A stretch of DNA of 64,000 nucleotides from Lachnospiraceae bacterium. Lineage in GTDB: Bacteria > Bacillota > Clostridia > Lachnospirales > Lachnospiraceae. Numbering within the stretch: the first letter of the stretch is position 1; each line of letters begins with the position of its first letter. The DNA is taken from the NCBI GenBank assembly GCA_017473905.1, contig JAFUJA010000005.1, positions 22,498 to 86,497 on the forward strand, given 5' to 3'. A program made the translations under genes and the position numbers. Shown piece by piece: positions 41,096 through 54,687 of this stretch. The notes beneath the pieces are model-generated. The model did not search any database, was not told the DNA's origin, and saw only the letters and a list, made by a program, of their open reading frames with translations.

Positions 41096-41653
41096 TTATT
41101 TCCCAAGCATCTGAAAAAACAAATTCTTCATGGCAGGGTCCGTTTCAAATACACCTCTGGTGGCTACGGTCACGGTTTTACTTCCCGGCTTTTTAACCCC
41201 TCTCATGGTCATACACATGTGCTCTGCTTCCATAACAACCATAACACCCTTGGGATTTAAATTCTCCATAATGGCATCCGCCACCTGGGAAGATAACTGT
41301 TCCTGAAGCTGCAAACGTTTGGCAAATACCTCCACGGTCCTTGCAAGCTTACTCAAACCAACCACCTCACCATTGGGAATATATGCAATATGTGCCTTTC
41401 CATAAAAAGGCATCAGATGATGCTCGCACATGGAATAAAAAACAATATCCTTTTCCAGCACCATTTCACTGTTATCCACTTTAAATCTTTTAGATAAAAC
41501 CTCTGCCGCCGATTCTTCTTTACCGGAAAGAATTTCCGTATACATTCTGGCAATCCGGTCAGGTGTCTCTACCAGACCTTCTCTTTTTACATCCTCGCCC
41601 ATTCCTTCCAAAAGCAGGGTTATGGCTTCCCGGATTTTATTTTCGTCTGTCAT
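41096..41653 (-). CDS. folE: GTP cyclohydrolase I
   Basis: A 185-residue zinc enzyme that starts folate synthesis by turning GTP into dihydroneopterin triphosphate. Motifs: [20 protein letters not shown] with zinc Cys and His residues, [18 protein letters not shown], and [16 protein letters not shown] with the third zinc ligand. Its ATG overlaps the folC stop by 4 bp (ATGA), indicating coupling; AAAGGAGG precedes it. Confidence 0.97.
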
Positions 41654-42960
41654 TTTATGCCTCCTTTATTCCTTTCCCTGTTTTCGCAAGCAGTTCTGAA
41701 TGCTCCGAGATAAGAAAGGGAACCGAATGCAAGTACCACGCCTTCCGGTCCTGCCAGAAGCGTAGCCATTTCCAGGGCCTCCTCAATGGAATCCGCCGCG
41801 GTTACATTCGGGTGATACTTCCGTATCTCTCCTGCCAGTTCAAATGCAGGCAGGGCGCGATGACGGATTGGCGGTGTCACGGTTACGATATACTCCGCCA
41901 TATCACAGGAATCCTGTATCATACAGGAATAATCTTTGTCTTTCAGTACTCCCATTATATAAACAATTCGCTGATTTGTAAAATGGAAACGAAGGGTCTC
42001 CATCAATTTTTTCACCGCTGCCTCATTATGGGCACCGTCAGCGATTATATAAGGTTTTTTGCCCAGTATTTCAAATCTTCCCGGCCATTTTGCATTCATA
42101 AAACCGGCAAGAATTTTATCATCTTTCAAAGCTACGCCCAGTTCTTTTAACACACGAAAAGCAAGCAGGGCAAGGATTGCATTTTCTCTCTGATGTGCCC
42201 CTAAAAGAGGAATCTTTACATTCTGATATACATCATAGGAAAACTGCTCACTTTTTAAAGTACTTTTTATTTTTTTCGCAGATAAGGGGTCCGCAAAATG
42301 AGGGGTAATTCCCAGATTACCGCAAGCCTTGGCAAGAACCTGCGCAACCTCTTCTGTCTGCTTGGCACTTACCATGGCAGTTCCGGGTTTTAAGATGCCT
42401 GATTTTACCATTGCAATCTTTTCCGGTGTATCTCCCAGAATTGCTTCATGGTCCATACTGATTTCCGTAAAAACACAAAGCTTTGGAGACGGAATCACGT
42501 TGGTCGCATCTTCTGCACCACCCATGCCGCATTCCAAAACGACATAATCACATTTTTTATCTCTAAAATAAGCAAATGCCATGGCGGTTTCCAGTTCAAA
42601 TGCAGTAGGATGGGCAAAACCTTCCGCCTCCATCTCTTTGGAAATCCGAAAAAGCTCCGTCAGGCAGTCCGCCACAAAAGTTTTGGTCACATGCTTATTA
42701 TTTACCTGAATTTTCTCCCTGTAATCCGTGATGACAGGTGAAATATACCGTCCTATTTTATAACCATTCGCCATAAGACCTTCCGCGAGAAAGGTAGAAA
42801 CGGAACCTTTTCCGTTGGTTCCCGCCACATGAATAAATTGCAGGGTTTCCTGTGGATTTCCCATGCGCCGGAGCAGTTCCCGTATGGTTACAAGTCCCAT
42901 AACACTGCCCAACTTATTCACATTTATCTCTAAATAGTCCAGTACTTCTTCATACTTCAT
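41650..42960 (-). CDS. folC: Folylpolyglutamate / dihydrofolate synthase
   Basis: A 436-residue Mur-ligase-like enzyme that adds glutamate to dihydropteroate and folates. It shows the ATP-binding [56 protein letters not shown] and [13 protein letters not shown]. It is the first gene of the folate operon, preceded by AGAGGA. It lies 33 bp after the PH-domain gene, so that gene's promoter may also serve the operon. Confidence 0.96.
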
Positions 42961-42993
42961 GTTTCTGTTTTTTCCTCTGAACTTTCCATTCTT

Positions 42994-43464
42994 TTAGACA
43001 TCTCCGTCAATTGCCGCATCAATGTTTAAGGTATTGATGGTACGTCTTTTCAGTCTCGCTTCCTCGGAAAACTTCAGGATAAAATCCTTTGCATCCTGGG
43101 AATGTCTGATATTTTTAAGTATAAGCTGCTGATGGGTGGAATCTCCGGTATAACAAATCACGTCTCCCAACCCGAACCAGCGCTGAAAAAATCCTCTTTC
43201 AAGTCGGACATCCTGAATTTTGTACATATAACAGTCGTTCTGTACCTTCTTAAAAAATCCGCTGTCGATGGTAAGTACATCTTCCTTCAGAGTATATCTG
43301 GTAAAAGTAAACGGCAGTCCCAGAAAAGCCCAACGCTTACGCTCTGTTAATACAAAAGTTCCCCTTGTCGTACTCGGTTCCCTATCCTCTCTGACCGGTT
43401 TTTCATCCGGTTCGGACACTGTCACATTCTTCATTTCTTCGGTTATATTTGCTTTATCTTCCAT
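42994..43464 (-). CDS. Bacterial PH-domain protein
   Basis: A 156-residue protein. The core (about residues 45-125) is a bPH2-type domain: FTFTRYTLKEDVLTIDSGFF, YKIQDVRLERGFFQRWFGLGD and a final LKNIRHSQDAKDFILK. The N-terminal 40 residues are charged and likely disordered. Unlike many relatives (YdbS/YdbT) there is no membrane helix pair. Function is unknown. It has its own promoter and lies upstream of folC on the same strand. Confidence 0.83.
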   Translation of the reverse strand: MEDKANITEEMKNVTVSEPDEKPVREDREPSTTRGTFVLTERKRWAFLGLPFTFTRYTLKEDVLTIDSGFFKKVQNDCYMYKIQDVRLERGFFQRWFGLGDVICYTGDSTHQQLILKNIRHSQDAKDFILKFSEEARLKRRTINTLNIDAAIDGDV

Positions 43465-43508
43465 ACTTCCCCTCCCATTTCTTCAGGCCAAGTTCGCATA
43501 CCACATAT

Positions 43509-43537
43509 ATTTTACCATTTTATCCTCATTCAAACAA
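43509..43537 (-). promoter_or_regulatory. Promoter of the PH-domain gene and possibly the folate operon
   Basis: On the minus strand TTGTTT (43532-43537) and TAAAAT (43509-43514) are separated by 17 nt. Confidence 0.6.
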
Positions 43538-43571
43538 CCTAAAAATACATTCCGATACACACATTATTCAC

Positions 43572-43601
43572 TTGCCTGTCCCCCCTGCCATGTGTTATCA
43601 T
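43572..43601 (+). promoter_or_regulatory. pyrBI promoter
   Basis: TTGCCT (43572-43577) and TATCAT (43596-43601) with an 18-nt spacer. The expected start is near 43608, leaving a leader of only about 30 nt, too short for a PyrR-type attenuator. Confidence 0.55.
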
Positions 43602-43638
43602 TATTCTGGTTTCAGATGATAAAAGAAAGGAGTCAGTT

Positions 43639-44553
43639 ATGCGACATTTAATGAGCCCTCTCGATTTTACGGTAGAAGAATTGGACAAATTGTTCGATCT
43701 TGCAAACGACATCGAGAAAAACCCCAGCAAATATGCTCACAGCTGTGACGGAAAGACTCTTGCCACCTGCTTTTATGAGCCCAGTACCAGAACACGTCTT
43801 AGTTTTGAGGCAGCCATGATTAATCTTGGCGGCAGCGTTCTCGGATTTTCCAGTGCAAACGCATCCTCTGCTGCAAAAGGAGAAAGTGTTTCTGACACAA
43901 TTCGTACAATTTCCTGCTATTCAGATATTTGTGCAATGCGTCATCCCAAGGAAGGTGCCCCCATGGTTGCGGCAGCCAAATCAGGCATTCCCGTAATCAA
44001 TGCCGGCGATGGCGGACATCAGCATCCCACACAGACCCTTACGGATTTACTTACCATCCGTTCCCTTAAAGGGCGCTTAAACAATTTCACCATCGGTCTT
44101 TGCGGTGATTTAAAATTCGGGCGTACCGTACATTCTTTGATTAACGCCCTGATTCGATACGACAATATTTCCTTCATTTTTATTTCTCCTGAGGAATTGC
44201 GTATTCCCGACTACATCACAGAAAAATTGAAGGAATTAAATATTCCTTATGAAGAAGTGATTCGTTTAGAGGATGTAATGCCTAATCTGGACCTTTTATA
44301 CATGACAAGAGTTCAGCGTGAAAGATTCTTCAACGAAGAAGATTACATCCGTTTAAAAGACTTCTATATCCTGAACAAAGATAAAATGGCATTGGCTAAG
44401 GATGATATGCTTGTGCTTCATCCCCTTCCCCGTGTCAACGAAATTTCCGTCGAAGTGGACGATGACCCGAGAGCCGCTTATTTCAGACAGGTTCAGTACG
44501 GTGTATATGTGCGTATGGCACTGATTCTGACACTTTTGGAAATCGAAGTTTAG
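43639..44553 (+). CDS. pyrB: Aspartate carbamoyltransferase catalytic subunit
   Basis: A 304-residue transcarbamoylase that makes carbamoyl-aspartate in pyrimidine synthesis. The carbamoyl phosphate site is [13 protein letters not shown], followed by [29 protein letters not shown] and [18 protein letters not shown] precedes the ATG. The partner regulatory subunit is encoded 15 bp downstream, so the enzyme is the allosteric PyrBI type rather than the free trimer. Confidence 0.98.
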
Positions 44554-44568
44554 GAAGGAGGAAACAAC

Positions 44569-45021
44569 ATGCTTAACATCGGTAAAATCGAAGAAGGATT
44601 TGTTTTAGACCATATCAAAGCCGGTAAAAGCCTTTCCATCTACCATCATCTTCAGTTAGATCAGAAAGACTGTACCGTTGCCATTATTAAAAATGCTAAA
44701 AGTAATAAAATGGGTAAAAAAGACATTCTGAAAGTAGAATGTGATATCAGCCAGCTTGACATGGATGTACTTGCGGTAATCGACCACGATATTACCATAA
44801 ATGTAATCCAGGGCGGAGAAATCGTTGCAAAACAGGAACTTTCTCTCCCCAAAGAAGTCCGTGACATTTACAAGTGCAAAAATCCCCGTTGCATTACTTC
44901 TATTGAACAGGAGCTTCCTCATATCTTCTGTCTTTCCGACGAAGCCAAAGGACTCTACCGTTGCAAATACTGTGAAGAGAAATGCACGGATGTTATCGGA
45001 GACAGTTTTCTGTTCCGTTAA
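44569..45021 (+). CDS. pyrI: Aspartate carbamoyltransferase regulatory subunit
   Basis: A 150-residue subunit that binds nucleotide effectors and a zinc ion. The nucleotide domain spans about residues 1-95, and the zinc domain has four Cys in CKNPRC and CKYC. ATCase with PyrI is known in enterobacteria, archaea and some Clostridia; the effector response here cannot be predicted. AAGGAGG precedes the ATG, and the operon ends with a terminator. Confidence 0.97.
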   Translation: MLNIGKIEEGFVLDHIKAGKSLSIYHHLQLDQKDCTVAIIKNAKSNKMGKKDILKVECDISQLDMDVLAVIDHDITINVIQGGEIVAKQELSLPKEVRDIYKCKNPRCITSIEQELPHIFCLSDEAKGLYRCKYCEEKCTDVIGDSFLFR

Positions 45022-45037
45022 AAAGACTCAAACAATA

Positions 45038-45075
45038 AAAAGCTACGATAAAATTTTTATCGTAGCTTTCTCTTT
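45038..45075. terminator. Bidirectional terminator, pyrBI / AAA+ operon
   Basis: AAAGCTACGATAAAA and TTTTATCGTAGCTTT form a perfect stem with a very small loop, followed by CTCTTTTAT. It lies between the convergent pyrI and AAA+ genes. Confidence 0.88.
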
Positions 45076-45103
45076 TATAACATGATATTTATGTACGGTT
45101 AAT

Positions 45104-46498
45104 TTACTGTATATCGCACATTTTTACGTCTGCAAGTGTTAATGCTCTCAAATCATCTACTGTTGCATTTGGAAGCTCTACCACACGACATGCCTGATTG
45201 GAAACAGCCTGTTCCAGGAAATTACGTACATCTCTGGCATTTGCATGTTCTGCCTTGGGATCCTGCAAGCGTTTTGCAAAGAATTCTTTTACGTATTCCT
45301 TGGCATTCTCCTTCAAATAGTATTCCTGATTCTCAAGCATTTTCTCCATAATGAGTATATGTTCTTCCGGAGAATAATTATCAAAGGTAATAAATTTATT
45401 AAATCTGGATTTAAGACCCGGGTTAGATGCAAGGAATTCCTGCATCTGTTTGGGATATCCGGCTACAATTACCACGAAATCCTCTCTATGATCTTCCATT
45501 TCTTTCAAAAGGGAATCAATGGCTTCCGTACCGAAATCCCCTTCACTTTTATTTACGACAAGAGAATATGCTTCATCAATAAAAAGCACTCCGCCCATAG
45601 CCTCTTCCACAACCTCTTTTACACGGGCTGCCGTCTGACCTACATAGCCTTTTACCAGGCCGGCACGGTCAGTTTCCACAAGGGTTCCTTTGGATAAAAC
45701 TCCCATATACTGATAAATCTTTGCTACAACTCTGGCAACCGTTGTTTTACCGGTTCCGGGGTTCCCTAAGAATACCATATGTTTGGAAATATCTATGGTT
45801 TTGATTCCCATCTTTTCACGCATCTGCTGAACCTTCATCAAGCTCACAAGACTGTGAATTTCCTGTTTAACACCCTGAAGTCCAATCATGCCGTCAAGCT
45901 CCTGTAAGGCTTCTTCCAGAAGTTTCGGATCCATGGTAGCTTCTTCTTTTTTAGGCATCAGCTGGCGAATCAGACGTTTTTCAACAGGAATAAATACACC
46001 CCTGTCACGCAACGTGTTTTCAATCATTTTATTATAGCAGGCGAGCCTTCCTACCGATTCCGGGGATGCATCTTTATTAACGGACAGAATCCTCTCTCCG
46101 AACATACGGATAAAATCCGCGATAATTTGCGCCTTCTGTTCACAATAAATATCATTGGGCAGGGTATGGGAAAAATCCGCACGTATAGCACACTGAAGCG
46201 CCACGGGAACATTCATTAAAATGTTTTCATCAATATGATCCCGCATTTTCATAATACGCATATCACGTACGGAAGGACAAGTGGTAAAAAATCTGCGCAC
46301 CACTTCCCTCTCGGTCTCTGAAATTTCTCCGTCTGCATCTGCAATATAAATTGCCAGGGAAATCATGGAGTACTGAAAACTGCTCTTTAGATCCCTGGGA
46401 ATCATACTGTTGTCCGCAGGAATTCCTGCTTCCGTAAGACGGGTACAGATATCCTCCACTATTGCCATATATTCTTCCGGGGTTTTTTCTACTGCCAT
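45104..46498 (-). CDS. TerB-like / CbxX-type AAA+ ATPase
   Basis: A 464-residue protein. The N-terminal part (about 25-150) resembles a TerB/DnaJ-like helical metal-binding module (LAIYIADADGEISETEREVV). The C-terminal AAA+ domain (about 215-464) is of the CbxX/SpoVK family: DGMIGLQGVKQEIHSLVSL, Walker A GNPGTGKTTVARVVA, Walker B GVLFIDEAYSLV, sensor-like VIVAGYPKQMQEFL, and arginine-finger NPGLKSRF. CbxX-type ATPases remodel partner proteins. It closes the Suf/COG0523 operon 12 bp after the second GTPase, which suggests that it acts on those metal proteins (inference). Confidence 0.9.
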   Translation of the reverse strand: MAVEKTPEEYMAIVEDICTRLTEAGIPADNSMIPRDLKSSFQYSMISLAIYIADADGEISETEREVVRRFFTTCPSVRDMRIMKMRDHIDENILMNVPVALQCAIRADFSHTLPNDIYCEQKAQIIADFIRMFGERILSVNKDASPESVGRLACYNKMIENTLRDRGVFIPVEKRLIRQLMPKKEEATMDPKLLEEALQELDGMIGLQGVKQEIHSLVSLMKVQQMREKMGIKTIDISKHMVFLGNPGTGKTTVARVVAKIYQYMGVLSKGTLVETDRAGLVKGYVGQTAARVKEVVEEAMGGVLFIDEAYSLVVNKSEGDFGTEAIDSLLKEMEDHREDFVVIVAGYPKQMQEFLASNPGLKSRFNKFITFDNYSPEEHILIMEKMLENQEYYLKENAKEYVKEFFAKRLQDPKAEHANARDVRNFLEQAVSNQACRVVELPNATVDDLRALTLADVKMCDIQ

Positions 46499-46510
46499 CG
46501 CATCACCTCG

Positions 46511-47440
46511 TTAAACAAGATTCAAAACCTCTTCCTTGGGTGCCTTCGCCGAAGTTACTTCCGTTGCATATAAAACAGGACCAACTCCGTTATAATCCGC
46601 CCAATACTCATGTTTTACAACTGCCGTAACCGTTACCCAGTCACCGCTTTTATACTGCTTTGCATCCTTCCATTTGGATACAAATCCCAAAAATGCAATA
46701 TCATCCGCACAACAGGTCATTGCGCTTCTGCCGGGTACAAAATGTCCCTCAGGGAAGCCATCCGGCTTCACTACCGTTGCAAGGAATTTAACCACCTTAC
46801 CCTCATACCGGTCAGGCGTATCCAACATATCAAAAAACCAGATTGCATAGCTTTTTTCGGTTAATTCAATCACATCTGCATTTACGTCATAAGGAAGTTC
46901 TTCTTCCATGGTTGCGGATACTTCGCCGTCTTTGTCCTCAAATACAATTTCCGCACTCCGGTTCAATGCCATCATGTTCCTTTTATAACTTGCCAGGTCT
47001 TTGATACCGTCACAACGGTTAAAAATAATGAGTTCTGACTTACGAACCATATCTCCTATCATGGAACGCATATTGTTATAATACATCGGGAATGTGGATG
47101 CATCGATAACCGTTACCTGCTGGCCGATTTTCCAGTGCCAGGGAAGCTTTAAATCCTTATAAGGCCACATACCGTTATACTCAATAATGATTCGCTCCGG
47201 TTTATGTTTTTTCTCAAGTTCCAACAGATGGGAAGAATTAAAATCTTCTTTTTCTTCTATGATTTCAAGTACGGTATTGGTCTGTTTTAAAAGTGCCTCA
47301 TCATATTCATTTTCACCCTCTTCGCAAAGCAGAAGAAGTGTCTTTCCTTTGGTCTGAAAATAAGGCTGCTGCATTGTAAACGTAATGAATTCCGTTTTAC
47401 CGCTCTCTAAAAATCCGTTTATAATATAAACTGCTTTCAC
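46511..47440 (-). CDS. CobW-like P-loop GTPase fused to DUF1980-like domain
   Basis: A 309-residue fusion. The N-terminal half is a COG0523-like P-loop domain: VYIINGFLESGKTEF is the Walker A, with RIIIEYNGMWP and IIFNRCDGI as later GTPase motifs. It lacks the GCxCC metal motif of the family. The C-terminal third, with KVVKFLATVVKPDGFPEGHF and PGRSAMTCCADDIAFLGF, resembles the OB-like DUF1980 region of TIGR03943/YcgQ proteins, which are tied to zinc-starvation operons. A GTG start at 47438-47440 (AGGAGG 6 nt upstream) is preferred to a longer frame that overlaps the previous gene. Confidence 0.8.
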   Translation of the reverse strand: MKAVYIINGFLESGKTEFITFTMQQPYFQTKGKTLLLLCEEGENEYDEALLKQTNTVLEIIEEKEDFNSSHLLELEKKHKPERIIIEYNGMWPYKDLKLPWHWKIGQQVTVIDASTFPMYYNNMRSMIGDMVRKSELIIFNRCDGIKDLASYKRNMMALNRSAEIVFEDKDGEVSATMEEELPYDVNADVIELTEKSYAIWFFDMLDTPDRYEGKVVKFLATVVKPDGFPEGHFVPGRSAMTCCADDIAFLGFVSKWKDAKQYKSGDWVTVTAVVKHEYWADYNGVGPVLYATEVTSAKAPKEEVLNLV

Positions 47441-47459
47441 TGACTGCCTCCTACGGCTC

Positions 47460-48698
47460 CTATACACCAAAAAGTGTCTTCAGATTTTCTTCTGAAATAT
47501 TAGAACCGATTACACAAATTTTACCTGTAACATCGGGAATTCCCTTGCGGACATTCTTTTCTTCCGGAACATAATCAAAGTAAATAAAATCTCCGTCAGA
47601 ACCGGGCACCATACCTTTGGCACGAAGTACAAGACCATATTTACCCACATTTTCGATTTCTTCCAGAATTTCACTGATTTCATCTTCAGTAAAGCACTTA
47701 GGTGTCTCAAATCCACAACTTGTAAACACTTCATCTGCATGATGATGGTGATGATGGTCATGACAACCGCAGGTACACTCTTCGTCATGGTCATGATGAT
47801 GATGTTCATGATGTTCATGATGATGCTCATGGTCATGATCGTGACAACCGCAATCGCAGTCTTCATCATGGTCATGATGATGCTCGTGATGATGATGTTC
47901 GTGTTCATGATCGTGACAACCGCAGTCACAGTCTTCGTCATGATCGTGATGATGCTCGTGATGATGATGTTCATGCTCATGGTCATGATCGTGACAACCG
48001 CAATCGCAGTCTTCATCATGGTCATGGTGATGTTCATGATGATGTTCACGTGCCTTGCTGAACTCCTCTAAAAGCTCCTCTTCGAGAGATTTACCCTTCT
48101 CCATGGTTGCAAGAATCTGTTCTCCGGAAATCTTATCCCAGGGAGTGGTAATAATGGTTGCCTTATCGTTATGTTTACGAAGCAATTCCACTGCTTCTTC
48201 CAGTTTTTCCTGTTTAACATTCTGGGTTCTGCTTAAAACGATAGTACCGGCATGCTCAATCTGGTTGATAAAAAATTCACCGAAGTTTTTGATATACATC
48301 TTACATTTTGATACATCCACAACAGCCACGGCTGCATTTAAGGATACATCCTTCATGTCTTCCTTACCAACTTCCAGGTCTGCAACTGCCTTAATAACAT
48401 CAGAAAGTTTTCCTACACCTGAAGGTTCAATAAGAATGCGTTCCGGCTTATACGTATCGATTACTTCTTTCAAAGCGGTTCCGAAATCTCCTACCAGGGA
48501 ACAGCAGATGCATCCGGAGTTCATTTCTTTAATCTCGATACCCGCATCTTTTAAAAAACCGCCGTCAATACCGATTTCACCGAATTCGTTTTCAATTAAA
48601 ACTACCTTCTCTTTGTGAAGTACATCCTTAAGCATTTTTTGAATAAAAGTTGTTTTTCCGGCACCTAAAAAACCGGAAATAATATCAATTTTAGTCAT
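47460..48698 (-). CDS. COG0523 (CobW/P47K) GTPase with His/Cys-rich metal tract
   Basis: A 412-residue GTPase of the metal-chaperone family. Residues 1-195 are the GTPase: GFLGAGKTT (9-17), the metal motif GCICC (62-66), LIEPSGVG (89-96) and SRTQN (156-160). Residues 218-320 are a tract of four imperfect repeats around CDCGC, CDCGC, CDCGC and CTCGC, with 50 His and 12 Cys by my count. Residues 325-412 are the CobW C-terminal domain. His-rich insertions are known in this family, but CDCGC repeats of this size are striking. The bound metal is unknown; zinc, nickel, cobalt or copper(I) are options. AAAGGA precedes the ATG. Confidence 0.93.
   Translation of the reverse strand: MTKIDIISGFLGAGKTTFIQKMLKDVLHKEKVVLIENEFGEIGIDGGFLKDAGIEIKEMNSGCICCSLVGDFGTALKEVIDTYKPERILIEPSGVGKLSDVIKAVADLEVGKEDMKDVSLNAAVAVVDVSKCKMYIKNFGEFFINQIEHAGTIVLSRTQNVKQEKLEEAVELLRKHNDKATIITTPWDKISGEQILATMEKGKSLEEELLEEFSKAREHHHEHHHDHDEDCDCGCHDHDHEHEHHHHEHHHDHDEDCDCGCHDHEHEHHHHEHHHDHDEDCDCGCHDHDHEHHHEHHEHHHHDHDEECTCGCHDHHHHHHADEVFTSCGFETPKCFTEDEISEILEEIENVGKYGLVLRAKGMVPGSDGDFIYFDYVPEEKNVRKGIPDVTGKICVIGSNISEENLKTLFGV
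47739..48047. repeat. Coding tandem repeats of the His/Cys tract
   Basis: Four imperfect units of 72-81 bp encode the pattern HDHDEDCDCGCHDHDHEHEHHHH with variants. The CDCGC cores start at residues 231, 257 and 281, and the CTCGC variant at 308. Synonymous codons differ between copies, so the repeats are not a very recent duplication. Confidence 0.9.
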
Positions 48699-48723
48699 TT
48701 TACACGATCCTTTCTTCTGCTGC

Positions 48724-49641
48724 CTACTTCAAAAATCCATTGACAATCTGAGCTTCCGCTTCTTCCTCCGTCAGGCCCAGCGTCATTAATTTGATTAACT
48801 GCTCGCCCGCAATTTTACCAATGGCTGCCTCATGAATCAGGCTTGCATCAATATGATTAGCCGTAATCTCAGGCACAGCCCGTACACTTGCTTCGTCCAT
48901 AATAATGGCATCACATTCCGTATGACCGTTACAACGGTTATTTCCGTTGATTTTAGATAAAAACAACTGTCTGGAATGGTCCTTGGCCACGGAACGGGAA
49001 ATAACATTGGCACCGCAATCTTCACCATCTAAGTCTACGGTAAAATCCGTTTCGGCAACCTGATTGTCATGGGTCATGATTTTTTCCTTAATAACGAGTG
49101 TTGCTTTATCTCCCAGTTTCGCATTGGTTACACGCTTGGTGGAATCTACACCTTCAATCTGTACGGTGTCCATTTCCATATAAGCGCCTTCTTTTAATTC
49201 GATAATGGTAACCGGGTTCATGATGCGCTCTCCGGTTCCCTCACCGCTTCCGTAATGCTTCTCCACATATTTTACTTTGGAATTGGCACCGACTACGAAA
49301 CTGTGAATACCGCTGTGCTCCGTGCCTTCTTTGCCACCGTTGTGAATGCCGCAACCTGCAATAATGGTTACGTCACAATCCTCTCCGATTACAAAATCAT
49401 TGTAAACAGATTCTTTTAAACCGGTCTGGGTTAAAAGCACCGGAATATGAAGACTTTCATTTTTGGTTCCGGGTTTAATAATAATATCAATTCCCGGCTT
49501 ATCTTCCTTGGTAATAATATCTATATTTGCTGTGGTGTTGCGTCCCGCAAGTCCTCCGTTTGTACGGATGTTATATGCACCTGTAGGAATTTCATGAAGA
49601 CCTGCAACCTGCTCCAACAGCGTTTTCTGTATTGCGTCCAT
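48724..49641 (-). CDS. SufB/SufD-like Fe-S assembly scaffold, short form
   Basis: A 305-residue SufBD-family protein. It has the beta-helix core (SVYNDFVIGEDCDVTIIAGCGIHNGG, HYGSGEGTGERIMNPVTIIELK) and the conserved C-terminal core (SRSVAKDHSRQLFLSKINGNNRCNGHTECDAIIMDE, then AVPEITANHIDASLIHEAAIGKI). It is shorter than SufB of the SUF pathway and is encoded directly with a SufC ATPase, without SufD, SufS or SufU nearby. This matches the minimal two-gene SmsCB-type machinery known in anaerobes. Fe-S scaffold function is inferred from family. Confidence 0.9.
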   Translation of the reverse strand: MDAIQKTLLEQVAGLHEIPTGAYNIRTNGGLAGRNTTANIDIITKEDKPGIDIIIKPGTKNESLHIPVLLTQTGLKESVYNDFVIGEDCDVTIIAGCGIHNGGKEGTEHSGIHSFVVGANSKVKYVEKHYGSGEGTGERIMNPVTIIELKEGAYMEMDTVQIEGVDSTKRVTNAKLGDKATLVIKEKIMTHDNQVAETDFTVDLDGEDCGANVISRSVAKDHSRQLFLSKINGNNRCNGHTECDAIIMDEASVRAVPEITANHIDASLIHEAAIGKIAGEQLIKLMTLGLTEEEAEAQIVNGFLK

Positions 49642-49688
49642 TTTTCTGTCCTGCTTTCTATATCAATTTCTTTCTAAAAGAGAGCTTA

Positions 49689-50417
49689 CTACTTATCCAT
49701 TTTGGATAAAAGGGTTTTACAGCCTGCGTTTTCGCAGAGTAAATCCGGAAGGATATCTTCCTTTTTGCCTCTGTTTTTTAATTCACCGTTGGCAATCACC
49801 AGAATTTCATCTGCAATATTCAGGATACGCTCCTGATGGGAAATAATCAGAATGGAGCCGCCTGATTTTTCATGCATGTTTTCAAACACACGGATTAAGC
49901 TTTGGAAACTCCATAAATCGATTCCCGCCTCCGGCTCATCGAACACGGAAAGCTTGGTTCCACGGGCCATAATCATGGCAATCTCAATTCTTTTTAACTC
50001 ACCGCCGGAAAGGCTGGCATTTACTTCACGATTGATATATTCTCTGGCGCACAACCCCACTTCTGACAAATAAGCGCAGGCTTCCGTCGTAGAAATGTTT
50101 TTGCCTGCTGCCAGGGTAATCAAATCTTTTACGGTAATTCCCTTAAAACGTACCGGCTGTTGAAATGCGTAGCTGATTCCCATCTGTGCTCTTTCCGTGA
50201 CGGTTTTATGGGTAATGTCCTCTCCGTCCAGAAAAATCTGTCCTTCCGTAGGTGTAATAATTCCGGCAATCAGTTTGGCAAGCGTAGACTTACCGCCTCC
50301 GTTAGGGCCTGTAATCGCAACAAACCGCTGTTCGGTTTTAAAACTGACATTCTTAATAATCTCCTTCAGATTGTTATCATCCTGAACCTGATAGGATACG
50401 TTTCTTAACTCCAGCAT
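49689..50417 (-). CDS. sufC: SufC-type ATPase
   Basis: A 242-residue ABC-type ATPase that works with the SufB-like scaffold encoded 47 bp downstream. Walker A GPNGGGKST, YAFQQPVRFKGI, signature LSGGELKRIEIAMIMA, Walker B LSVFDEPEAGIDLWSF and ISHQERIL are visible. DEPEAGID (in place of the DEIDSGLD of classic SufC) marks the short SmsC-like type. The ATG at 50415-50417 with AGAGG upstream is chosen; the gene begins 30 bp after the GGDEF gene. Confidence 0.93.
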   Translation of the reverse strand: MLELRNVSYQVQDDNNLKEIIKNVSFKTEQRFVAITGPNGGGKSTLAKLIAGIITPTEGQIFLDGEDITHKTVTERAQMGISYAFQQPVRFKGITVKDLITLAAGKNISTTEACAYLSEVGLCAREYINREVNASLSGGELKRIEIAMIMARGTKLSVFDEPEAGIDLWSFQSLIRVFENMHEKSGGSILIISHQERILNIADEILVIANGELKNRGKKEDILPDLLCENAGCKTLLSKMDK

Positions 50418-50447
50418 TTTAATCCTCTTTCTGCACCTCAAGCACTT

Positions 50448-51701
50448 TTATTCGCTGAAAGTATGCGTATTCTTTCCGCTGCGCTTGATTTTATATAAAT
50501 TCTGATCCGCTTTGTCAAAAAGCTTCTTGTAGGTAGTTCCGTCCTGAGGGGAAATTGCAACACCCACACTTGCTTTTACAACATAACGGTCTTTCAATCC
50601 GATTGGATTGTTTGCAAAACAATCAAAAAGATTTGCAAGGCGTTCTTTAATAACAGTCATTTCAAGCATATCCCGGCAGAATACAAGATATTCATCTCCG
50701 CCGATTCTTCCGATGATATCATCTTCACCGAAGCAGTCCGTGAGCATGTCCGCCACTTCTTTGATTACCTTATCCCCGAAGCGATGACCGTATGTATCAT
50801 TAACCATTTTAAAATCATCTAAGTCCACTACTACAAGGGCATTGGTTTTCTCTTTGCCGCCTTCATCCAGATATGCTTCAATCTGCGCCCGAACCGCATT
50901 ATTGTTGTACAAGCCGGTAAGGGAGTCTCTTTCTGCTTTTTTCTTCCAGAGCAGGGTTTTCTGCTTGCTTTCGTTGATGTTACGGATAACACCGATGGAC
51001 ATATACGGCTTACCGTCATCATCCAAAACAAGGGAGCCTAAAAATTCCACCCAAATGTATTCCTTGGACTTTTTACCGGAAAGCATACGAATTTCCATAC
51101 TTTTATATTCTTTTCCTTTCCAAAGAGGATATAAAAGCATGATATCTTCATTATGCACATAACCGTTTTCAACTGCAACAGACGAAAAATTCTCCAGTTC
51201 AAACCAGACCTCATCTTTATTCAGGTCATTATTATTGGCAGAATCATAAATTATCATTTTGTCATCGGCAATGAAATATTCATACACCACATCACCCGTG
51301 GAACGCATTGCATTCCGGAATCGGCGCTGCTCCTCCCGCAGACGCATCTGCATTTCACGCATTTCGGTAATATCCGTAATACTGCACAGGAAATAATCTC
51401 CGTCATTACGGTGAGAGGTGTTTGCCTCACAGCTTGTATATAATTTTTTGCCTTCCTTGGTGGTAAGCTGCAGAGACTGTTTTACACAGGTATCCGTTCC
51501 GTTTGCTTCCCGCAGCTGTTCACGCAACAGCAAAACATCTTTTTCATCCAGCAAAACACGAAAATCCGTGTTCATAATGTCTGCAATTTCTTCTTCCGTA
51601 TATCCGACCATTGCACGAAAACGATTGTTACACATAAAATTGGGTTTGCCAATTGTATTTACCAGCATACACGCTGCCGGAAAACGATTAAACATTTCCA
51701 T
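50448..51701 (-). CDS. PAS-GGDEF diguanylate cyclase, soluble
   Basis: A 417-residue cytoplasmic protein. PAS-like sensor domains (residues 1-125 and about 130-250) precede a GGDEF domain (about 255-417) with LTGLYNNNAVRAQIEAYL, VDLDDFKMVNDTYGHRFGD and the active site IGGDEYLVF. There is no RxxD inhibitory site before GGDE (the residues are EDDI), so feedback inhibition is not expected by that route. It is the first gene of the Suf/COG0523/AAA+ operon, with a promoter divergent from that of the HD gene. Whether it senses redox or a metal is not shown. Confidence 0.9.
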   Translation of the reverse strand: MEMFNRFPAACMLVNTIGKPNFMCNNRFRAMVGYTEEEIADIMNTDFRVLLDEKDVLLLREQLREANGTDTCVKQSLQLTTKEGKKLYTSCEANTSHRNDGDYFLCSITDITEMREMQMRLREEQRRFRNAMRSTGDVVYEYFIADDKMIIYDSANNNDLNKDEVWFELENFSSVAVENGYVHNEDIMLLYPLWKGKEYKSMEIRMLSGKKSKEYIWVEFLGSLVLDDDGKPYMSIGVIRNINESKQKTLLWKKKAERDSLTGLYNNNAVRAQIEAYLDEGGKEKTNALVVVDLDDFKMVNDTYGHRFGDKVIKEVADMLTDCFGEDDIIGRIGGDEYLVFCRDMLEMTVIKERLANLFDCFANNPIGLKDRYVVKASVGVAISPQDGTTYKKLFDKADQNLYKIKRSGKNTHTFSE

Positions 51702-51779
51702 ACAGTCTTCTCTCCTCTCAGGAATTCCTAAAAATCCGATGCAAAAACCGAACTTCCCATATTACCTTTAAACCATATC

Positions 51780-51808
51780 ATTTTATCATATATTAAGATA
51801 AAAAGAAA
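51780..51808 (-). promoter_or_regulatory. Promoter of the GGDEF-Suf operon
   Basis: On the minus strand TTTCTT (51803-51808), a 17-nt spacer, and TAAAAT (51780-51785) preceded by TGA, giving an extended -10. Confidence 0.5.
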
Positions 51809-51809
51809 G

Positions 51810-51838
51810 TTTATTTTAGATGGCAAATATGGTAAAAT
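51810..51838 (+). promoter_or_regulatory. Promoter of the HD-alarmone synthetase pair
   Basis: TTTATT (51810-51815), a 17-nt spacer and TAAAAT (51833-51838). It lies back to back with the promoter of the GGDEF operon, so the two may affect each other. Confidence 0.5.
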
Positions 51839-51843
51839 GTAAA

Positions 51844-51886
51844 TGAGTTTATTACAAACTCACTATGCCCTAAAGGGGTTCGGGCA
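51844..51886 (+). promoter_or_regulatory. Two hairpins in the HD gene leader
   Basis: TGAGTTT-attac-AAACTCA (51844-51862) is directly followed by TGCCC..GGGCA (51866-51886), near the expected transcript start and before the AAAGGAG site. No known riboswitch was recognised. Confidence 0.4.
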
Positions 51887-51906
51887 AAGGAAAGGAGTTG
51901 GGGTTT

Positions 51907-52509
51907 ATGGGTACAACAATTGAGAAACTTTTTACGGAAATGCCGGCAGAATTTGCTCCGGTTTTAAGCAAATTACGTAATTGGGACAAATGGCCGCTTT
52001 TTTATCATTACGTGCAGACCCTGAACAGGGACGCGCTTTATACAAGCCGGATTCACGGCTATGCCCACATCGAAAGAGTGATTCTTTACGGCGGTCTGAT
52101 TGCATTGCACGAAGGATGTAACGAAGAAGATATCAAATTGCTTCTTACTTCCTGTTCCTACCACGATATCGGTCGCATCAATGATATGGTTGATGACAGT
52201 CACGGTGCCCGCTCTGCGGAAAAAGTCCCTTCACTGGTTGATTTTACGGGAGAAGACCTTGCCATTATACAGGCTTCCATTAAGGCACATTCCGTAGATG
52301 ATTCCCTGATAGATAAAATCATAAAAGATTTTAACATTTCAGACACAAAAAGAGCACAATTGATTGCTAAAATGTTAAAAGATGCAGATGCACTGGACAG
52401 AGTACGGGTAAATGCCCTCGACCCTTCCTATCTGCGCTTCGAATACAGCCGGCAATACATTGATTTTTCCGTTGCATTGTGCAAATACTATGCATCATTA
52501 AATGAGTAA
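51907..52509 (+). CDS. HD-domain phosphohydrolase
   Basis: A 200-residue HD-superfamily protein: HGYAHIERVILYGGLIALHEG gives the first His, SCSYHDIGRINDM the HD pair, DDSHGARSAEKV the third His, and KDADALDRVRVN a further Asp. I use the ATG at 51907-51909, with AAAGGAG 9 nt upstream. It is encoded 30 bp before a small alarmone synthetase, so a nucleotide or alarmone substrate is possible, but the motif is not the Mesh1/Rel-type and the activity is unproven. Confidence 0.87.
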   Translation: MGTTIEKLFTEMPAEFAPVLSKLRNWDKWPLFYHYVQTLNRDALYTSRIHGYAHIERVILYGGLIALHEGCNEEDIKLLLTSCSYHDIGRINDMVDDSHGARSAEKVPSLVDFTGEDLAIIQASIKAHSVDDSLIDKIIKDFNISDTKRAQLIAKMLKDADALDRVRVNALDPSYLRFEYSRQYIDFSVALCKYYASLNE

Positions 52510-52539
52510 GCCCGGTAACAGAAAGGAATTATTAAACAC

Positions 52540-53217
52540 ATGATGGAAAACGAACAGCTTCTTTTGCTGGAACAGCTCTCCCGTCAGATTGACCCCGAAC
52601 AGGTTCCGGCACTGGTGGCAGACTACCATAAAATGATTACAAAGTACAATTGCGCCCTTCGCGAGGTGCGCACCAAATTCGAAGTATTAAACGATGAATT
52701 GTCCATAAAAAGTAACCGGAATCCCATTCATGCAATACATACCAGAATCAAAAATCCCAAAAGCATCATGGACAAGCTGGCAAGAAAAAATCTGCCGTTT
52801 TCCCTGACCGCGGTACAAAATGAGCTAAACGACGTGGCGGGAATCCGTGTCATCTGTGACTTTGTAGATGACATCTACGAAATCGCAGAAATGCTTTTAA
52901 AGCAGGACGATATCCGCCTGATTCAATGCAAGGATTATATCCGCAATCCCAAACCCAACGGATACCGGAGTTATCATATGATTATTGAAATTCCGGTTTT
53001 CTTCTCCGACGGCAAAGAACTTTTGAAAGTGGAAGTCCAGCTTCGTACCATTGCCATGGATTTCTGGGCCAGCCTTGAACATGAGATGAAATATAAAAAA
53101 GACCTGCCCCCGGAAGAAAGTGCTTCCATCAGCAACAATCTTCTGGAATGTGCAACCACCATTGCAAAAATGGATGCCAATATGCAGGAAATCAAAAACA
53201 AAATATATCCGAGATAA
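52540..53217 (+). CDS. Small alarmone synthetase (RelA_SpoT domain)
   Basis: A 225-residue single-domain (p)ppGpp synthetase of the YjbM/YwaC class. It has KNPKSIMDKLARKNLPF, the catalytic DVAGIRVICDFVDDIY, NPKPNGYRSYHMIIE (substrate motif) and KVEVQLRTIAMDFWASLEH. It lacks HD, TGS and ACT domains, so it only synthesises. It starts after the HD gene at an ATG-ATG with AAAGGA upstream. The long Rel enzyme is encoded at 13435-15723. Confidence 0.93.
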   Translation: MMENEQLLLLEQLSRQIDPEQVPALVADYHKMITKYNCALREVRTKFEVLNDELSIKSNRNPIHAIHTRIKNPKSIMDKLARKNLPFSLTAVQNELNDVAGIRVICDFVDDIYEIAEMLLKQDDIRLIQCKDYIRNPKPNGYRSYHMIIEIPVFFSDGKELLKVEVQLRTIAMDFWASLEHEMKYKKDLPPEESASISNNLLECATTIAKMDANMQEIKNKIYPR

Positions 53218-53249
53218 TCCGGAAGGGAGGAAACACATTCCTCCCCTTT

Positions 53250-53837
53250 TTATTTTTTCTCATAGGGAATCAAAACCGGCTGAAGCTGTTTTCCTTCCAT
53301 TGCCGCTTCTGCCGTTTCCAAAATCATATCCATATGGGCAACCAGAGAACAGGGTTTCTTTACCCAGTCATCCTGACCGAAGGGAACAAAATAGATATTT
53401 TTAACATTCATTAAAAGCCCTATATTCTTCATATTCATGCTCAAAGCATCGTTGGTGGACACGGCAAGCACCAAGGGTTTTTCGTTCCGGATATGAGCCT
53501 TTGCGGCCATTAAAACAGGGGTATCCGTAATGCCGTTTGCAAGTTTTGCAAGGGTATTTCCGGTACAAGGGGCAATTACCATAACATCCAGATGATTTTT
53601 AGGGCCGATGGGTTCAGCCTCCTGAATGGTAAAAATCCCCTGTCTTCCGGTAATTTCCTGCACTTTGGCAATAAATTCCGTCGCCCGCCAGAATCTGTTA
53701 TCCATCTCAGCCACATGGTCCGAAAATACCGGATACAAATCCACACCTTTTTCCACCAGTTCTTCTAACACCTTAACAATCTTGGTAAAAGTACAAAATG
53801 AACCGGTAAAACCGATTCCCATTTTTATATCTTTCAT
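53250..53837 (-). CDS. spoVFB: Dipicolinate synthase subunit B
   Basis: A 195-residue flavoprotein-like subunit (HFCD family) that works with subunit A to oxidise a lysine-pathway intermediate to dipicolinic acid for the spore core. Features: GIGFTGSFCTF at the start, PCTGNTLAKLANGITD (FMN phosphate loop) and PLVLAVSTNDALSMNMKNIG. Its presence with a spore protein gene indicates an endospore former. AAAGGAG precedes the ATG, and the gene lies 20 bp after subunit A. Confidence 0.95.
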   Translation of the reverse strand: MKDIKMGIGFTGSFCTFTKIVKVLEELVEKGVDLYPVFSDHVAEMDNRFWRATEFIAKVQEITGRQGIFTIQEAEPIGPKNHLDVMVIAPCTGNTLAKLANGITDTPVLMAAKAHIRNEKPLVLAVSTNDALSMNMKNIGLLMNVKNIYFVPFGQDDWVKKPCSLVAHMDMILETAEAAMEGKQLQPVLIPYEKK

Positions 53838-53856
53838 AACCCGCTCCTTTTTAGAC

Positions 53857-54687
53857 TTATTCCGGCTTCACAATTTTTAAAAATGCATCTGCAAGTATTT
53901 CTCCCGAAGATGCCGGCGAGTAAATTCCCGGCAATCCGGAGCAAAGTTTTGCTTTAATTCCGTGCTTTTCACAGTAGGAAAAATCTGTTCCCCCGGGAGC
54001 GCCGGCAATATCGATAATAACGCAGTCCCTGCTTACTCTTTCCAGCCTGTTTTCTCCAAAGACCGGCTCCGGAACCGTATTAAAAATAAAACGATATTCC
54101 TCTCCCGGCTTAACCGTAAAATCCGCGGTTTCATATCCCAGAGCTTCCGCCAAGGCACGCACTTCAGGTTTTCTTGCCATAATTGTCACCCTTGCATTAA
54201 GACCTTTTAATTTATCTGCAAGAATTTTTCCGCATCTCCCGTAGCCGGCAACAAGACAGCTTTTTCCGTGAAGATTATAGTGACTTAACTTCACGGCCTC
54301 AGCAACCGCACCCTCTGCTGTTGCTATGCCGTTATAGAGAGCCACCTCTTCCATTTCCATAAAATCAAGACATTCTACCCCATTTTCTTCAAGGCAGCGA
54401 CGGAATTCCTTCGGAAAAACACCGGCAAAAACCTTTGTTCCCGAAGTAACGCTTTCCTTGATTTCATCTAAAAGAAACCTGCTTTCTCCACCGCCTTTCA
54501 GGTGTGTCCCGTCACCGGTGACCGGTATCGGTAAAATCAGTAACGGACTTGTTTTGATCCGTTTCCGGAGCGCCTCTTCCCCTACTTCTTCTTTGTCTTT
54601 ATAGTGAGACACCTGAAAACCCTTTTCTCTCAGTTTCTCTGCCAGATATACCTGACGTAAATCCCCTCCCAGAATCAGTACCTGCAT
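53857..54687 (-). CDS. spoVFA: Dipicolinate synthase subunit A
   Basis: A 276-residue dehydrogenase-like subunit with an N-terminal VLILGGDLRQVYLAEKL and a second Rossmann motif VAGYGRCGKILADKLKGL. It catalyses the final step to dipicolinic acid with subunit B. I chose the ATG at 54685-54687, with AAAGGAG 7 nt upstream, over an in-frame start 21 codons earlier. It begins just after the truA terminator, so its promoter has to overlap that element. Confidence 0.94.
   Translation of the reverse strand: MQVLILGGDLRQVYLAEKLREKGFQVSHYKDKEEVGEEALRKRIKTSPLLILPIPVTGDGTHLKGGGESRFLLDEIKESVTSGTKVFAGVFPKEFRRCLEENGVECLDFMEMEEVALYNGIATAEGAVAEAVKLSHYNLHGKSCLVAGYGRCGKILADKLKGLNARVTIMARKPEVRALAEALGYETADFTVKPGEEYRFIFNTVPEPVFGENRLERVSRDCVIIDIAGAPGGTDFSYCEKHGIKAKLCSGLPGIYSPASSGEILADAFLKIVKPE

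Follow-up and report, generated by a model that had tools for sequence, protein, structure and literature searches.

Six minus-strand genes at positions 45104–51701 of a 64,000-nucleotide stretch of Lachnospiraceae DNA (the window; contig JAFUJA010000005.1) raise the question of whether a closely packed row is one system or several lying side by side. The genes encode, in order, a PAS-GGDEF protein, SufC, SufB, a COG0523-like GTPase, a second GTPase (named GTP2 here), which lacks CxCC and is fused to DUF1980_C, and an AAA+ ATPase. An initial annotation had suggested that they form a dedicated metal or iron–sulphur (Fe-S) loading system, possibly signalled by cyclic di-GMP. The account favoured here, with somewhat more confidence than doubt, is that the row is a lineage-specific composite, the core of which is a two-GTPase metal-allocation module, probably for zinc, joined in this lineage to a scaffold of the SMS type (a minimal, two-gene Fe-S system, SmsCB). 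The features of the locus are as follows.

50448–51701, minus strand: PAS-GGDEF protein, 417 aa (PF13426, E 1e-12; PF00990, E 8.1e-36)
49689–50417, minus strand: SufC/SmsC-type ABC ATPase (ABC_tran; best solved match MJ0035 SmsC)
48724–49641, minus strand: short SufB (SmsB-type) scaffold, 305 aa (SUFBD_core, E 4.2e-25)
47460–48698, minus strand: COG0523-like GTPase (cobW, E 4.5e-36)
47745–48062, minus strand: His/Cys/Asp/Glu tract, residues 213–318 of the COG0523-like protein
46511–47440, minus strand: GTP2 (cobW, E 1.5e-11, and DUF1980_C, E 4.4e-23)
45104–46498, minus strand: AAA+ ATPase of the CbxX/SpoVK/EccA kind (AAA and AAA_lid_6)
45037–45071, both strands: terminator-like stem between the converging pyrI and AAA genes, 16 pairs on the minus strand and 14 on the plus strand

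The two GTPases are the constant unit of the row. GTP2 was present in 131 of the 150 Lachnospiraceae genomes, nearly all one per genus, of a family census, and its surroundings were read at 111 census loci (the window and 110 stretches; 20 further GTP2 stretches were left out) and at 80 named loci, the best of at least 593, which overlap with the census loci. A COG0523-like gene lay upstream of GTP2 at 101/111 census and 75/80 named loci, and the locus met a contig end in 7/10 of the census misses and 5/5 of the named ones. The pair is also carried by a cultured Lachnospiraceae strain, Kineothrix alysoides (L083). GAGKT and EPSG (the Walker B glutamate) were kept in 176/176 partners, counted over both overlapping sets, and C[IV]CC in 101/101 census and 75/75 named partners. 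The G4 position read [ST]R instead of NK in all 176/176, with no intact NKxD, the mark of the G3E family according to section 5 of PMC2770081. The partner encoded in the window, in which a COG0523 GTPase with a His/Cys tract had initially been recognised, does show cobW, CxCC (as CICC) and a tract of 106 residues; its other motifs are GAGKT, EPSG and, at G4, SRTQ, and the tract comprises 48 His, 12 Cys and 36 Asp/Glu and includes four C[DT]CGCH repeats. Long spurious shadow ORFs (open reading frames) arise from the His tract on both strands (window 47510–48071).

GTP2, rightly described beforehand as a second P-loop GTPase with a DUF1980-like domain (both cobW and DUF1980_C were found), bears another set of motifs. 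C.CC, the CxCC pattern expected of COG0523, occurred in 0/128 GTP2 sequences; MTCC was present in 124/128, in the DUF1980_C part, and C-E-x-G is conserved. At G4, N-R was seen in all of the 107 rows displayed out of 111 in the census, and 54 of these have D as the last residue. The TIGR03943 score of the window's GTP2 was 75.8 against a cut-off of 88.8, from a match covering the C-terminal part only. Because the motifs are divided in this way between two constant partners, an asymmetric GTPase heterodimer is proposed, which the two proteins would perhaps form.

Among 249 genomes of the phylum, fused GTP2 was found in 4, all of them from Lachnospiraceae and one being the window's own; full-length relatives occurred in G037 and G043, which represent two other families of the order. 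G037 holds the fused form (L061) and also, at L063:6957–10333, a COG0523 gene, a cobW–ArsP_1 permease fusion and a separate TIGR03943 protein with DUF1980_C, and in G041, likewise from another family of the order, TIGR03943, COG0523 and an unfused cobW GTPase stand in a row (L064). That the parts of GTP2 are neighbours as separate genes elsewhere supports their working jointly and suggests for those relatives a step at the membrane; outside Lachnospiraceae the module would be wired to a predicted permease and a separate DUF1980 protein. Among the papers listed from one open-licence library (on COG0523, DUF1980 and CobW, judged partly by title and abstract), no description of the GTPase pair was seen, and no function assigned to DUF1980 was found there. 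At its most ambitious, the evidence could be read as an undescribed, nearly Lachnospiraceae-specific, obligate asymmetric GTPase pair, derived from a permease-linked membrane set and in some lineages hard-wired to an ancestral SMS as metal donor or anti-zinc guard, with the AAA+ protein as remodeller; as a whole this is quite improbable.

The packing of the six genes is as close as first reported: the ORFs, their minus-strand order and gaps of 12–47 bp all hold after start correction, the gaps being 30, 47, 25, 19 and 12 bp in gene order. SufC probably starts at the ATG at 50417 and not at the TTG at 50441 of the ORF list, which would leave a GGDEF–SufC gap of only 6 bp. GTP2 probably starts at the GTG at 47440 and not at the ORF finder's TTG at 47470, because relatives begin there; in-frame stops in some relatives were judged to fall mostly in the false upstream extension of the query begun at TTG 47470, because several such matches start at query residues 4–5. 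The stem at 45037–45071, with T-tails on both strands, lies downstream of the AAA gene, and a scan of 44500–52600 for terminator-like sites, a weak one (11 sites against 6.9 in shuffles), found no other on the minus strand. A single transcript over this putative six-gene operon is plausible. An Rfam search of 43000–54000 gave no match at gathering scores and therefore no known riboswitch.

Despite this packing, the genes of the row proved separable. Among 31 genomes of the window's genus, its own included, all six genes occurred together in two (G000, G019); SufB and COG0523 of G019 are separated by 3.8 kb of inserted DNA with repeated small ORFs, membrane- or lipoprotein-like (L036:7600–11300). 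SmsB was found in 28/31 (not in G012, G017 or G023) and stood upstream of the pair, on the same strand and within 4 kb, in 11/31 (G000, G001, G004, G006, G013, G015, G019, G020, G025, G026, G028), G025 being counted for a COG0523-like match after SmsB, with GTP2 on another contig. As far as contigs show, SmsB was apart from the pair in 13/31; contig ends cut the placement in 4/31 (G002, G018, G022, G029). A close GGDEF ortholog (E ≤ 1e-90) was present in 8/31, each time with space for SufC before SufB, and four genomes (the window's own, G019, G010 and G027) showed GGDEF-SufC-SufB in that order; in 6 of these 8 genomes the pair was on another contig. The AAA gene followed GTP2 in 3/31 (G000, G019, G020). 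With presence and placement varying separately in this way, the row is therefore a stack of modules with separate histories, and the dedicated six-gene system fell at the neighbourhood check that its own proposers had named as able to refute it.

The wider samples agree. In the family census (AAA counted at E ≤ 1e-60) this SmsB was found in 78 genomes, AAA in 42 and ZnuA in 97. SmsB and GTP2 were neighbours in 4/71 genomes with both, from 3/70 genera (the window's, G068 and G178), and AAA and GTP2 in 2/40 (G000, G166), which again speaks against a six-gene unit. Named loci with SmsB beside the pair numbered four: L076, L077, L086 (window's genus) and L152, where SmsB appears as two matched pieces near a contig end. 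AAA was directly behind GTP2 at two named loci (L113, L148) and behind Znu genes at one (L104). Three consecutive AAA-protein matches were seen upstream of the pair at L093:2635–5070.

Might the row, then, have no functional meaning, its modules having been rearranged into a readily reshuffled region where they share at most a common promoter? GGDEF and AAA do come and go within one genus, and elsewhere the pair often lies amid housekeeping genes (for example ylmH, pyrBI and others named from sequence only). However, the SmsCB–pair order arises on 2–3 branches, AAA is directly behind GTP2 in three lineages (the window's genus; L113 and L178; L148), and Znu genes precede the pair in some lineages and follow it in others. 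When 128 GTP2 rows were placed on a quick tree, label changes numbered 7 for Znu, 3 for SmsB and 4 for AAA. Moreover, the recurrences of SmsCB, AAA and Znu beside the pair exceed an estimate from random placement in 3 Mb genomes with genera taken as independent, which is crude since Znu loci cluster on the tree: about 0.03 genera with SmsB beside the pair would be expected and three were seen, and the AAA–pair link is likewise commoner than random placement gives. Neutral co-location is a possible but doubtful explanation, and because both links exceed random expectation a connection of the pair with Fe-S assembly can still be upheld, in a weaker form than that first proposed.

What the scaffold itself does bears on this tie. 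The initial assignment of SufBC to the SMS type is upheld, the best solved matches being Methanocaldococcus jannaschii SmsB MJ0034 (9h7y/9h78) for SufB and SmsC MJ0035 (E 5.4e-42) for SufC; the SufC model TIGR01978 matched at E 7.8e-35, below its cut-off. SufC directly precedes SufB with no sufD, sufS or sufE beside them, which is the SMS gene order. The SMS model NF052511 (445 positions) gave 57.9 bits against a cut-off of 650; being longer than both SufB (305 aa) and MJ0034 (316 aa), it was taken to represent a longer SmsB type, and the present scaffold is called SMS-type only. Among 41 SmsB rows, the residues C97, C237, C243, H270 and E271 are kept in at least 95%. All 37 SmsC rows, some of which repeat a genome, have at least one C-terminal Cys, and most show one; the window's SmsC has two (...LLCENAGC..., C-x4-C), and one M. 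jannaschii Cys (MJ0035, in LICAG) aligns with Ala there. In M. jannaschii SmsCB, as reported in PMC12192291, a [4Fe-4S] cluster sits on the C-terminal cysteines of SmsC, of which there are three, varying in number and spacing among SmsC proteins, and sulfide is usable. Deletion of both sufCB loci of Methanosarcina acetivorans is reported to have left total Fe-S content unchanged (PMC10500019), so that even the Fe-S role of SmsCB here is one that we infer. The source metagenome-assembled genome (1.72 Mb, 33 contigs, 71% complete) gave one SUFBD_core match, the row's SufB, and two strong cobW matches, both in the row, with two marginal ones elsewhere; the NifU_N profile had no match in it, which at 71% completeness is weak evidence.

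Strings in which scaffold and pair adjoin suit a more specific idea, close to the dedicated Fe-S loading system of the initial annotation: that the pair is donor or guard of the SMS scaffold, giving it ferrous iron or keeping zinc off it, while the AAA+ protein resets the complex. SmsC-SmsB-COG0523-GTP2 stand in the same order and on the same strand in 11/31 genomes of the genus and in G178, where a 161 aa ORF separates SmsB from COG0523 and a polar amino-acid ABC transporter follows GTP2. In G068, on one strand near a contig end (L177:4106–11408), SmsB-COG0523-GTP2 are followed by MetN/MetQ-like genes and a NifS cysteine desulfurase that scores over its cut-off; the downstream genes of both strings would suit Fe-S assembly. 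In a SufB tree of 30 rows, G068 groups with G178 as its sister (96/92), and the genomes sampled from the genus form a single clade (98/98), so that the SmsCB–pair order either had two or more origins or has been widely lost. FeoB near the pair at 3/111 census loci, the excess over random placement given above and the conclusions of the SMS paper, in which no iron donor was found (PMC12192291), also favour the idea. Nevertheless, with GTP2 in 131/150 genomes and this SmsB in 78, the pair must work without SmsB in many; the two were not found side by side in 67/71 genomes with both, nor in the 13/31 genomes of the genus in which contigs show them apart; and zinc importers are commoner neighbours of the pair than FeoB. 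That the pair is donor or guard of the scaffold is unlikely.

Those neighbours are the basis for preferring zinc. Zinc importer genes (ZnuA/ZnuB or ZIP) lay near the pair at 12/111 census and 14/80 named loci, compared with 3/111 and 0/80 for FeoB and 3/111 and 1/80 for DtxR-like genes; none of the three kinds was found at 15 control loci around unlinked SmsCB, a small set. ZnuA was within 8 kb of GTP2 in 8/84 genomes with both, against about 0.65 expected. The string ZnuA-ZnuC-ZnuB-COG0523-GTP2 was read in L213, L215, L218 and L223, COG0523-GTP2-ZnuA-ZnuC-ZnuB-AAA in L104, and ZnuA-ZnuC-ZnuB-FeoB-Fur-DtxR-COG0523-GTP2, on one strand, at L210:9642–18478; FeoB/DtxR beside the pair belong to one clade. 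At L220:6352–8392, two genes judged from sequence to be TrkH/TrkA-like potassium-system genes lie between ZnuB and COG0523. The metal role first proposed for the GTPases fits these neighbourhoods, and zinc is the best guess at the metal, with iron the alternative.

Several observations weigh against a zinc-allocating GTPase module. No zinc importer was in reach at 99/111 census and 66/80 named loci, Znu-linked loci are largely confined to a few clades, and counted by independent clades the Znu excess is weak (P 0.13 for two clades, P 0.03 for three). The FeoB and SmsCB neighbours would fit iron equally. No ZnuA was found in the window's genome (71% complete), nor in G068, whose SmsB adjoins the pair. 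No shared Zur-like box or palindrome was found upstream of the pair in 85 stretches searched for exact inverted repeats and with a Gibbs sampler, the only motifs recovered being ribosome-binding-site-like or gene-like. Three census loci with room upstream still had no COG0523 partner, the evidence for a heterodimer consists of motifs, and the L063 permease resembles a Cu/Zn efflux family only weakly, below cut-off.

One frequent neighbour of the pair could itself be a zinc client. To the left of the row, window 41650–45021 holds folC, a bPH-domain gene, pyrB and pyrI, a block that frequently accompanies the GTPase pair and of which pyrB-pyrI converge on the row behind the terminator-like stem. 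It could be supposed that the pair mainly loads zinc into PyrI, the regulatory chain of aspartate transcarbamoylase, since PyrI (with its metal-binding domain, PyrI_C) and PyrB lay within 7 kb at 11/104 census loci with an identified GTP2 ORF, and pyrB at 53/121 loci of a closer set, in 13 of which it comes next downstream of the pair, on the same strand. The remaining 93/104 census loci had no pyrBI nearby. With bPH and folC, pyrBI makes up part of a larger syntenic block, and the orientation of pyrBI to the pair is variable, so that descent explains the linkage; PyrI as main client was set aside and is very unlikely. To the right, window 51898–53217 carries two genes that diverge from the row, one for an HD-domain protein and one with a RelA/SpoT domain that resembles small alarmone synthetases; the RelA-like gene was found at 15/121 loci of the closer set.

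The first and last genes of the row can be placed with less assurance. The "TerB-AAA+ ATPase" of the initial annotation stands as regards AAA and AAA_lid_6, whereas its TerB-like N-terminal region is weak (E 0.005, below cut-off); SpoVK (TIGR02881) and CbxX models gave 299.7 bits against 422.95 and 249.4 against 459.25, respectively. The PAS-GGDEF protein has the motif GGDEY, with no RxxD just before it in the stretch examined. For signalling by cyclic di-GMP, there is the close GGDEF ortholog beside SmsCB in 8/31 genomes of the genus; outside it, matches were at domain level only, GGDEF-domain genes (33–34% identity) lying within 1.5 kb of SmsCB at 2/15 loci of other genera (L187:6736–10390, L188:8872–12340). 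These two keep a link between cyclic di-GMP and SmsCB in consideration, though GGDEF genes are many per genome.

On the composite account, the CxCC site and the His/Cys/acid tract of the COG0523-like partner would serve to capture a transition metal, of which Zn(II) is the likeliest. GTP2 would work with this protein, perhaps as the other half of an asymmetric heterodimer, and hand over the metal in a step gated by nucleotide. Some other genera would have the module connected with zinc importers (ZnuACB, ZIP) or with FeoB/DtxR; in the window's lineage the pair lies downstream of the SMS-type scaffold, so that the proteins for sorting metal and those for assembling Fe-S clusters would be produced at the same time. 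The AAA+ ATPase may remodel a partner or a client, and the PAS-GGDEF protein probably belongs to the GGDEF-SmsC-SmsB string of the genus. The sequences are thus best read as showing a nearly Lachnospiraceae-wide putative metal GTPase pair that several lineages have linked to zinc import and a few, including that of the window, to a minimal Fe-S scaffold.

COG0523 proteins have mostly been studied singly. A constant pair, one member with the metal motif and the other without, in 131/150 genomes of a large family of gut bacteria offers a system for testing how such GTPases choose clients; joined to SmsCB, it is a candidate metal supply for a minimal Fe-S system, and the DUF1980–GTPase fusion beside zinc importers suggests a candidate function for DUF1980.

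Four known systems lend themselves to comparison. With the CbxX/SpoVK/EccA family of AAA+ proteins, the window's ATPase has an AAA core and AAA_lid_6 in common, but it falls below all three equivalog cut-offs and has the weak TerB-like N-terminal region. In the YcgQ/YcgR set, we take YcgQ to be the DUF1980 protein. That set, a DUF1980/TIGR03943 protein with a permease partner (YcgQ/YcgR = ScfB/ScfA, as given in PMC5584981), has a C-terminal DUF1980_C in common with GTP2, and L063 comes nearest to it, having an ArsP_1 permease and a genuine TIGR03943 protein beside the GTPases; in the window and in Lachnospiraceae, by contrast, DUF1980_C forms one protein with a P-loop GTPase. The SMS of M. jannaschii, as described in PMC12192291, shares the two-gene C–B order, the short scaffold, a cysteine in the C-terminal region of SmsC and the closest solved homologues, and differs in that the LICAG Cys of MJ0035 is replaced by Ala in a protein that has C-x4-C. 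Finally, the COG0523 zinc metallochaperones YciC/ZagA and ZigA, on the features reported in PMC2770081 and PMC9164220, resemble the partner in Walker A, CxCC, the Walker B glutamate, a His-rich stretch and, in some genomes, co-location with znu. The partner departs from them in having [ST]R rather than NK at G4, in a CobW_C match that is below cut-off in the window (above it in L104 and L215) and in nearly always preceding a second, CxCC-less GTPase fused to DUF1980_C.

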